Shown here: positions 55,358-57,150 of the stretch, piece by piece
How the letters are laid out: every line of letters starts with the position of its first letter
How positions within the stretch are numbered: position 1 is the first letter of the stretch
DNA from: Fluviicola sp.
GTDB lineage: Bacteria > Bacteroidota > Bacteroidia > Flavobacteriales_D > Crocinitomicaceae
Length of the DNA stretch: 64,000 bases
NCBI GenBank assembly: GCA_002734085.1
Contig: NVXV01000019.1
Coordinates: 1 to 64,000, forward strand
Reading direction: 5' to 3'
Notes under the pieces: model-generated
What the model was told of the DNA's origin: nothing
Seen by the model: the letters and a program-made list of their open reading frames with translations, nothing else
The model's database searches: none
Made by a program: the position numbers and the translations under genes

Positions 55358-56107
55358 ATGGCTCTAATACATTCCCTTGAAAAATCTGGAAATACCTTAT
55401 TTAAGTACCGAGGACAGATACCAGTGATTTTATTTATTCTTGCTGTCCCTGTTATTTACTTTACTGATTACAGTTTTATTTTCAGCGAAGATATCACCTA
55501 CTGGATCTTAATGGGGGTAGCAGTACTCCTGTCTCTATTAGGGCAGGTAATACGCGCCATTGCAATTGGAACAGCCAACAAGAATACTTCAGGAAGAAAC
55601 ACCAAAGAACAAGTTGCAGAAGCGTTGAACACAAAAGGCATCTACTCCACTATGCGCCACCCTCTTTATGTAGGTAATTATTTCATGTGGATAGGTATTG
55701 TTGTCTTTACAGCGAATATTTGGTTTGTTTTAGCAGTAAGTTTAGCGTTCTGGTTATACTATGAGCGTATTATGTTTGCTGAGGAAAGATTTCTTGAGAG
55801 AAAATTTGGACAAGACTATCTTGATTGGTCTTTAAAAGTACCTGCTTTTTGGCCTTCGTTCAAGAATTATATCCCTTCACCGATTTCTTTTTCAATGAAA
55901 ACGATCTTAAGAAGAGAATACTCTGGAGTAACAGCAACAATAATAGGGTTTCTATTTGTGGAGGTGTTAAGAGATGTTTTTACGACTGGAACCTTTGAAT
56001 TTAAAATTCATTACATTGTAATACTGGCAGTGGCCTTGTTTATTTCATTGTTTTTAAGAACATTAAAGCATCACACAAAAATTTTATTCGAAGAGGATCG
56101 TTCTTAG
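55358..56107 (+). CDS. isoprenylcysteine methyltransferase-like (ICMT/PEMT family) membrane protein
   Basis: 'GIYSTMRHPLYVGNYFMWIGI' and 'YYERIMFAEERFLERKFGQDYLDW'. Confidence 0.9.
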   Translation: MALIHSLEKSGNTLFKYRGQIPVILFILAVPVIYFTDYSFIFSEDITYWILMGVAVLLSLLGQVIRAIAIGTANKNTSGRNTKEQVAEALNTKGIYSTMRHPLYVGNYFMWIGIVVFTANIWFVLAVSLAFWLYYERIMFAEERFLERKFGQDYLDWSLKVPAFWPSFKNYIPSPISFSMKTILRREYSGVTATIIGFLFVEVLRDVFTTGTFEFKIHYIVILAVALFISLFLRTLKHHTKILFEEDRS

Positions 56108-56171
56108 GTCTAGAATTTAAAAAAACTTCTAAATCTGCACCTTCAAAACCAACAAATCGTTTGTTTTAATT

Positions 56172-56321
56172 GTGTGTTGGCTCAGGATACTAACAAAATC
56201 GTCAGTATTAGAGCGCAGGATTCATAACCCTGAGGTCGGGAGCCTTGACGAAATGAATTTTTCAAAATTCTTTTGTCAAGATACTGATCAGAGCATCAGC
56301 ATTCAAATCTCCCTCGCGCCA
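56172..56321 (+). pseudogene. tRNA(CAT)-like copy A with hairpin insertions in D-loop and T-arm
   Basis: Identical anticodon arm to the intact tRNA at 56494; inserts at 56186-56208 and 56243-56301. Confidence 0.9.
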
Positions 56322-56360: not shown

Positions 56361-56429
56361 ATTATTTCATTGTTTATAAGTGCTTTGAAGTTTCGTTTCA
56401 AAATTTTATGCGAAGATGATCATTCATAA
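56361..56429 (+). pseudogene. 3'-end relic of the ICMT-like gene
   Basis: 23 codons (IISLFISALKFRFKILCEDDHS*) align without gaps to FISLFLRTLKHHTKILFEEDRS* at 56039-56107, ~51/69 nt identical by eye. Confidence 0.8.
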
Positions 56430-56451
56430 GTACAGAATTAAAAAAAACTTC

Positions 56452-56459
56452 TATATTTG
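56452..56459 (+). promoter_or_regulatory. -7 promoter element TATATTTG of the intact tRNA
   Basis: Exact TAnnTTTG; degenerate TAAATCTG at the same place upstream of copy A. Confidence 0.65.
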
Positions 56460-56493
56460 CACCCTCAAAACCAACAAGTAGTTTGTTTTAATT

Positions 56494-56567
56494 GGCGTGG
56501 TAGCTCAGTTGGTTAGAGCGCAGGATTCATAACCCTGAGGTCGGGAGTTCAAATCTCCCTCACGCCA
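56494..56567 (+). tRNA. tRNA-Met(CAT) (elongator type; Ile2 not excluded)
   Basis: GGCGTGG-TA-GCTC..GAGC-G-CAGGATTCATAACCCTG-AGGTC-GGGAGTTCAAATCTCCC-TCACGCC-A folds as a cloverleaf; CCA not encoded. Confidence 0.95.
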
Positions 56568-56578
56568 CTAGAAAGAAA

Positions 56579-56625
56579 AGAGAATGAGAGACAGAGTGAG
56601 AGCGATGACTCTCATTCTCTTTTTA
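56579..56625 (+). terminator. intrinsic terminator downstream of the tRNA
   Basis: 12-bp perfect stem AGAGAATGAGAG/CTCTCATTCTCT followed by TTTT. Confidence 0.85.
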
Positions 56626-56661: not shown

Positions 56662-56925
56662 ATGAAATACTACACTTACATTTTTAAATCTATTAATCAT
56701 GATGAGTATTATATTGGTCAAACCAACAATATAGTTAATCGTCTCGAAAGACATAATAAAGGCTACGAAAAATATACTAGCAAATATAAACCTTGGGAAA
56801 TAGCTTTGAAAATCGAAAAAAACAGTCGCTCTGAAGCTATTATACTTGAAAGAAAGCTAAAGAACTTAGGGGGTAAAAGACTTAAACAATTTATTGAAAA
56901 GTATAGCCGAGGTCGGGAGACTTGA
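56662..56925 (+). CDS. GIY-YIG nuclease domain protein (COG2827-like)
   Basis: 'YYTYIFKSINHDEYYIGQTNNIVNRLERHNKGYEKYTSKYKPWEIAL...EAIILERKLK'; last codons SRGRET read tRNA-derived DNA. Confidence 0.92.
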   Translation: MKYYTYIFKSINHDEYYIGQTNNIVNRLERHNKGYEKYTSKYKPWEIALKIEKNSRSEAIILERKLKNLGGKRLKQFIEKYSRGRET

Positions 56926-56999
56926 CGAAATGAATTTTTGAGAAATTCTTTTGTCAAGATGCTGATCGGAGCATCAGCATTCAAATCTCCCTCACGCCA
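56909..56999 (+). pseudogene. tRNA 3' half (copy C), variable loop to discriminator base, with 60-nt insertion in the T-arm
   Basis: GAGGTCGGGAG-[60 nt]-TTCAAATCTCCCTCACGCCA. Confidence 0.92.
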
Positions 57000-57005
57000 C
57001 TAAAA

Positions 57006-57052
57006 AGAGAGTGAGAGACAGAGTGAGAGCGATGACTCTCATTCTCTTTTTA
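57006..57052 (+). terminator. duplicate of the tRNA terminator
   Basis: AGAGAGTGAGAG/CTCTCATTCTCT with TTTTT; near-identical to 56579-56625. Confidence 0.8.
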
Positions 57053-57084
57053 CTTCATCCTCACCCCTCCTTCTCTACTCCATA

Positions 57085-57150
57085 ATGAAATTCTACACCT
57101 ACATTCTAAAATCCATAAATCATCAGTAGTATTACCTAAATGCTGTGACT
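57085..57150 (+). pseudogene. 5' remnant of a second GIY-YIG gene
   Basis: MKFYTYILKSINHQ*YYLN versus MKYYTYIFKSINHDEYYIG. Confidence 0.8.

Follow-up and report, generated by a model that had tools for sequence, protein, structure and literature searches.

A hairpin-split tRNA-Met copy in Fluviicola sp., apparently a trace of GIY-YIG nuclease and palindrome units in tRNA genes

What a tRNA-Met copy with hairpins in both its D-loop and its T-arm represents, beside an intact tRNA-Met gene, is the question raised by a stretch of 64,000 nt of Fluviicola sp. (positions 1 to 64,000 of contig NVXV01000019.1, hereafter the window). A first-pass annotation, made from the letters of the window, had placed the hairpin-bearing copy at 56172-56321 and set two readings side by side, a decayed pseudogene or a structured RNA with elongated D and T arms. 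The best reading is that this copy, here called copy A, is a relic without function, left from a tRNA-Met gene that palindromic DNA insertions had split. A wider reading, to which a probability of roughly 0.6 is given, takes copy A as a relic and the inserted element as a selfish GIY-YIG/palindrome repeat unit living in tRNA genes.

The locus runs from the ICMT gene through the broken copy A and an ICMT 3' relic with promoter to the intact tRNA-Met, and continues with a terminator, a GIY-YIG gene, the broken copy C, a further terminator, and a GIY-YIG relic. The features are as follows.

55358..56107, + strand, ICMT/PEMT-like methyltransferase gene (Pfam PF04191/PF04140), the ancestral upstream neighbour of tRNA-Met, which it precedes in 7 sister genomes.
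56130..56137, + strand, -7 box of copy A, degenerate in sequence (TAAATCTG, opposite TATATTTG at 56452-56459 in the alignment; sister genomes have TATATTTG or TATCTTTG).
56172..56321, + strand, copy A, a tRNA-Met relic interrupted in the D-loop and the T-arm, uncalled by ARAGORN and Rfam.
56186..56208, + strand, D-loop insert of copy A, resembling hairpin 2 (hp2) of the double-hairpin element and aligning with hp2 of locus L134.
56243..56301, + strand, T-arm insert of copy A, a double-hairpin element according to the double-hairpin model (hairpin 1, or hp1, at 56243-56280; hp2 from 56281).
56362..56493, + strand, second copy of the 3' end of ICMT with the promoter region of the tRNA (direct repeat D1, 81% over 133 nt), absent from the sister genomes.
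56494..56568, + strand, intact tRNA-Met(CAT) (ARAGORN; Rfam RF00005, 69 bits).
56576..56623, + strand, terminator-like inverted repeat after the tRNA (inverted repeat I3, direct repeat D2), with a second occurrence at 57003-57050.
56662..56925, + strand, small GIY-YIG nuclease gene of 87 aa (Pfam PF01541, E 3.9e-14), its stop codon within hp1 of copy C.
56909..56999, + strand, copy C, the tRNA-Met 3' part with a double hairpin between GGGAG and TTCAAAT, 93% to copy A.
56920..56979, + strand, double-hairpin element of copy C (double-hairpin model; fold z -6.1).
57003..57134, + strand, second unit, truncated, with the repeated terminator and a GIY-YIG ORF relic that covers the beginning of the gene (direct repeats D2, 93%, and D3, 79%).

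The insertions described for copy A are present in the sequence. The D-loop carries a 23-nt insert (GATACTAACAAAATCGTCAGTAT), whose score against hp2 of L134 was matched by 0 of 5000 plain and 3 of 5000 arm-preserving shuffles, and the 59-nt palindrome sits precisely at the GGGAG/TTCAAAT junction of the T-arm, where it was matched by double-hairpin model R1 at 67.4 bits (E 2.8e-15). A segment of 35 nt (TTAGAGCGCAGGATTCATAACCCTGAGGTCGGGAG) is identical to 56513-56547 in the intact tRNA. The ICMT relic, put at about 74% identity in the annotation, was measured at 75% over aligned columns (68/91), the intergenic and promoter stretch agrees between copy A and the intact locus at 88% (56/64), and the tRNA body without the inserts agrees at 65 of 70 positions. 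The degenerate promoter that had been reported also held, as the aligned -7 boxes above show. Copy A was called by neither ARAGORN nor Rfam, both of which gave just the intact tRNA-Met and a tmRNA on the window, and it thus went unrecognized by the covariance and heuristic tRNA models that a functional tRNA gene would be expected to match.

Three features had been overlooked. The first is copy C, a third partial copy with the same 59-nt element, which consists of GAGGTCGGGAG, the palindrome as in copy A, and then TTCAAATCTCCCTCACGCCACT, and was matched by model R1 at 69.5 bits. The second is the intact GIY-YIG ORF between the intact tRNA and copy C, which begins about 90 bases past the intact tRNA-Met and overlaps copy C at its end. 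The third is a similar insert at a tRNA-Gly elsewhere in the genome.

The ancestral state was read from 7 genomes of the same genus, all of which have the ICMT gene followed by one intact tRNA-Met with a normal promoter; conservation of copy A in sister genomes had been proposed as a check, and it was absent from 7/7. In 6 of the 7, no GIY-YIG gene was seen in the stretch read at the tRNA-Met locus. The seventh (G078) has the intact tRNA-Met and then, across assembly gaps, at least two units of 3' half, terminator, and GIY-YIG; the end of one of these units is formed by GAGGTCGGGAG, a double hairpin, and TTCAAATCTCCC. Because the sisters show a single intact tRNA-Met, copy A stands at the ancestral tRNA-Met position yet is decayed, and the downstream copy is the intact one. 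The term decayed pseudogene therefore fits the tRNA body of copy A, with its decayed promoter and acceptor and its absence from the sisters. It does not fit the inserts. These are no product of random decay but members of a palindrome family that is conserved, shows covariation, and is associated with GIY-YIG nuclease genes.

In the model from 8 seed copies, drawn from different tRNAs and genomes, the element consists of two abutting hairpins. Hairpin 1 reads YYTGAC, a bulged G, a variable stem, and GTCARR, and hairpin 2 reads RTGCTGAY...RTCAGCAY; single examples fold far better than shuffled sequences (z -4.5 to -6.9). Within the family, the model was matched first in 10 of 119 genomes and then in 29 of 241, with strong matches also in two other families of the class. 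The model search gave 3 double hairpins in this genome and 1-6 per genome in others. Across 55 distinct sequences, 96.4% of cells are paired in an alignment that was fitted to the structure, which favours this percentage. Compensatory changes, which the first-pass annotation had named as a test, were found in the double hairpin, with 12 of 16 pairs changed on both sides against 6.6 in shuffles and 2-6 for slid structures, and the bulged G is retained in 53 of the 55. A double-hairpin subfamily (CATGACGATTAGC...) of one genus, at G100:C8, G620:C8, and G632:C47 (L185, L187, L198, and L202), does not lie in any recognisable tRNA copy.

The element is placed in tRNA genes at fixed sites. The flanks of 43 of the 47 scored double-hairpin copies match a tRNA at 17-20 of 20 bases, compared with a median of 11 and a maximum of 16 in 78 random placements; the other four, all in one genus, are without recognisable tRNA flanks. 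Nine isotypes serve as hosts (Met, Val, His, Asn, Ala, Gly, Asp, Arg, and Ser). The 43 tRNA-matched double hairpins are always in the D- or T-arm and never in the anticodon or acceptor arm. In the D-arm, the insertion points are near tRNA positions 10/11 and 19/20, the 5' half is retained, and the copy is upstream of the intact tRNA. In the T-arm, they are at the GGGAG^TTC boundary or just past TTCRA, and such copies usually comprise the T-stem strand and the 3' half alone, downstream of the intact tRNA. Most copies have lost the anticodon arm, so the set is explained neither by splicing nor by conservation of a tRNA-like RNA. At L066 (G000:C27:97900-99000), an intact tRNA-Gly(GCC) stands between two part copies, upstream a 5' half whose D-arm contains structured insertions and downstream a 3' half with the double hairpin, and no GIY-YIG gene is nearby.

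The GIY-YIG protein of the window belongs to its superfamily by score (PF01541, 53.1 bits against a curated cut-off of 22.6) and by residues, Y5, Y16, R26, and E62 being invariant in the alignment with the window row included; Tyr, Arg, and Glu are the catalytic residues of GIY-YIG nucleases. A tblastn search with the window nuclease gave no match in 72,556 plasmids or 50,697 phages, and hence no sign of a plasmid- or phage-borne element. For roughly half of the double hairpins, a small GIY-YIG gene is no more than about 450 nt away. Small GIY-YIG domains, 104 distinct ones taken from genomes of the family and from GTDB contigs, were classed by the sequence 3' of the gene into those with a double hairpin, with a single hairpin replacing the anticodon arm in a tRNA copy, with non-tRNA palindromes, and with none. 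An intact tRNA was found at most 600 nt upstream for 12/15 of the double-hairpin class, 4/4 of its variants, and 27/36 of the single-hairpin class, compared with 9/21 of the class with none of these and 0/26 for non-tRNA palindromes. The upstream tRNA is mostly 30-110 nt from the GIY-YIG gene.

Two further kinds of locus were observed. At L065 (G000:C3:205900-207600), a second small GIY-YIG gene has on one side a tRNA-Val 3' half without its 5' half and on the other a tRNA-Val copy with a hairpin as its anticodon arm; ARAGORN called the latter 'tRNA-Stop(tta)', which is a spurious annotation. Small GIY-YIG genes of a separate clade, class 'PAL' (L077-L090, L106, L110, L111, L117, L119, and L123-L125), are flanked by non-tRNA palindromes such as CTTCGACAGGCTCAGTGACC. 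In G023, the palindrome beside a gene of this class was found again at more than 10 other places. As a lead only, 'PAL'-class GIY-YIG is a candidate partner of REP-like repeats that lack a transposase, and related GIY-YIG lineages may mobilise dispersed REP-like palindromes without a known transposase.

In an out-of-sample test, a profile of the double-hairpin GIY-YIG clade gave matches in 92 of 299 genomes of the phylum (E <= 1e-15). Among the 30 best loci of this search, an intact tRNA is upstream on the same strand in 23, the window locus included, and just downstream in three more; after many of the 30 comes a tRNA copy with a G+C-rich hairpin in place of the anticodon arm. Near-identical tandem arrays of 3-5 GIY-YIG units of 300-450 bp, in two polarities, were found at L255-L262, mostly in single-contig assemblies, beside an intact tRNA-Leu, Asp, Pro, or Ser. 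At L256, an intact tRNA-Asp is followed by five 315-bp units, at L257 (a draft genome) an intact tRNA-Pro by four 322-bp units, and at L255 a tRNA-Leu by five 450-bp units without an obvious broken tRNA. L258, L259, and L262 have the opposite polarity, GIY-YIG units with broken 5' halves coming first and the intact tRNA last.

For the double-hairpin subtype, the unit consists of the tRNA remainder from the T-loop, the terminator, the GIY-YIG gene, the T-stem 5' strand, and the double hairpin, and its place is precisely the junction of T-stem and T-loop or the mirror site in the D-arm. This junction accounts for one intact tRNA beside one or more hairpin-broken part copies. That nuclease lineages go with hairpin classes, as described below, also speaks for a selfish unit. 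We infer the mobility of the unit and the action of the nuclease in it. The nuclease would recognise palindromic DNA, either its own hairpin or tRNA arms or both, tRNA arms being natural palindromes with exposed loops. It would cut at the target, and repair or recombination would copy the unit in. As one end of the unit would rebuild the tRNA, insertion would be tolerated, the target regenerated, and arrays able to grow. Recombination or deletion between repeats would leave solo relics such as copy A, whose D-loop hairpin would derive from an hp2 of this family that has decayed. D-arm copies that lack a nuclease gene would have been moved in trans. About half of the double hairpins, including the tRNA-Gly locus of this genome and D-arm arrays, have no GIY-YIG gene within about 450 nt, so the mechanism needs trans action or gene loss at these places. 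Single units each hold one tRNA isotype, and movement between isotypes is unaccounted for by the mechanism. The 81% ICMT/promoter duplication before the intact tRNA is an extra event that the mechanism does not require. The same reading extended to the phylum, in which Bacteroidota harbour selfish units that each pair a small GIY-YIG lineage with its own DNA palindrome, insert in a tRNA arm, regenerate tRNA and target, and grow as tandem arrays, stands at about even odds.

It is also conceivable, though unlikely, that hairpin-broken tRNA copies came about by ordinary tandem duplication and decay, that the palindromes were spread by another enzyme, and that GIY-YIG is a passenger or repair nuclease. 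Unequal crossing-over between near-identical units can grow arrays, many double hairpins have no GIY-YIG gene nearby, and the genome has two Y1 transposases elsewhere; neither of the Y1 genes, however, shares a contig with the element loci found in this genome. The pairing of nuclease with hairpin is a further difficulty for this explanation. On a tree of the 104 GIY-YIG domains (73 columns, many open forks, class labels set by hand from the downstream sequence), hairpin class took 16 changes against 55.1 with shuffled labels, and host genus took 69 against 79. With few changes of class and many of host genus, the nuclease lineage tracks the hairpin and not the host. The reading frame argues the same way, as in 8 of 15 double-hairpin loci the GIY-YIG frame stays open across hairpin 1 and is closed by the TGA of hairpin 2. 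Genes of this kind, with a tail such as SSDELLLIQKLSEC, were observed at L206, L208, L210, L168, L199, L171, L211, and L107.

An RNA-level role was weighed in two forms. That copy A and its relatives are functional tRNA-like RNAs with long D and T arms, for instance nuclease decoys or guides, is quite improbable. In its favour, copy A does fold as a cloverleaf with the long D and T arms that had been described (-44.2 kcal/mol, z = -3.7, equalled by 0/200 shuffles), the hairpins covary, and the anticodon arm is unchanged. This arm had been called untouched, which is correct in that it has no changes, but the pattern is only mildly unusual (P = 0.027, post hoc, for 5 changes over 70 tRNA positions with none in the middle 35, a pattern picked out in hindsight). 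The intact arm was considered as a sign of selection and rejected on this post hoc P and because relatives do not keep the arm. Copy A is moreover missing from the 7 sister genomes, its promoter and acceptor are decayed, and in nearly all relatives just the 5' half or just the 3' half of the tRNA flanks the insert, with the anticodon arm lost or scrambled; a structured RNA with elongated arms is thus unsupported as a general function. Selection at the RNA level would favour G-T mispairs over A-C, and no clear excess of this kind is seen in the double hairpin (13 vs 6, or 20 vs 15 with terminal pairs). A functional long-armed RNA is accordingly an unlikely identity for copy A itself. In the second form, to which we attach similarly little credence, the double hairpin would act as RNA, for stability or autoregulation, where the GIY-YIG mRNA ends, and its placement in tRNAs would be secondary. 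The ORF does end inside the double hairpin in 11 of 15 loci, the 8 with the TGA of hairpin 2 and 3 others, the window included, with the stop elsewhere inside the element; the element also occurs, however, in D-arm copies upstream of tRNAs with no GIY-YIG gene ahead of it, and at fixed tRNA sites. Introns removed from precursor tRNAs can practically be dismissed, for although copy A minus both inserts approximates the intact tRNA-Met, most interrupted copies other than copy A lack one half, so that splicing would give no tRNA, and an intact tRNA usually adjoins the broken copies.

Returning to the selfish-unit reading, the GIY-YIG/palindrome units would by analogy work most like REP/REPIN sequences with their RAYT (TnpA-REP) enzymes, whose features are partly documented in PMC3733652 and PMC3116915. 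In both systems the palindromes are short and imperfect and keep an unpaired feature, a dedicated nuclease gene is flanked or adjoined by its cognate palindromes, and non-autonomous copies occur elsewhere. The enzyme differs, being GIY-YIG here and a Y1/HUH tyrosine transposase in RAYT, and the two Y1 genes of this genome are on contigs other than that of the window's GIY-YIG locus. The palindromes here are in tRNA D-, T-, or anticodon arms, and the units carry part of a tRNA and form tandem arrays. There is no GTAG foot, the conserved unpaired feature being the bulged G in GAC-G...GTC, and the copy number is low where REP sequences show high-copy intergenic dispersal. CGTC-tagged palindromes have been reported without a dedicated transposase in Bacteroidetes and other phyla (PMC3733652); compared by motif alone, their unpaired CGTC-type motif resembles the GAC-G(bulge)...GTC of the double hairpin, which reads GAC...CGTC when taken from the opposite strand. 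The CGTC-tagged repeats are scattered between genes, whereas the double hairpins here are in tRNA copies.

Free-standing GIY-YIG homing endonucleases have the nuclease gene beside the presumed target, which is rebuilt or protected. The units here share the small GIY-YIG domain with an intact motif and the position of the gene beside a presumed target, but they have no intron or intein, the target is a tRNA arm, and an intact target remains alongside, which allows arrays to form. In tRNA islands and tycheposon-like elements, which use tyrosine recombinases, the tRNA is restored by an element-borne piece and a tRNA fragment is left at the other end. Insertion in a tRNA gene and restoration of the tRNA are common to both, but the units here are 300-450 bp in size, have a palindrome at the junction, and occur in 5' and 3' polarities; no integrase was noticed in the ORF list of the window. 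The nearest solved structures to the window nuclease are the UPF0213/YhbQ small GIY-YIG proteins 1ZG2 and 1YWL, a weak sequence match (E 0.001-0.008) to entries described as hypothetical proteins. No prior description of GIY-YIG/tRNA-palindrome units was found in the open-licence literature, which is weak evidence of absence.

Copy A is apparently one of the traces left by a GIY-YIG/palindrome system that is widespread, seemingly undescribed, and at home in tRNA genes. If this is true, GIY-YIG nucleases would join the Y1 transposases as a second class of enzymes partnered with palindromic repeats in bacteria, and tRNA genes would be the niche of palindrome-partnered GIY-YIG nucleases. The question of what mobilises REP-like palindromes without a transposase (PMC3733652) would become testable. 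The system would also explain why many small GIY-YIG genes stand next to tRNAs in Bacteroidota and why false tRNAs are called, as with the ARAGORN 'tRNA-Stop' in this genome.
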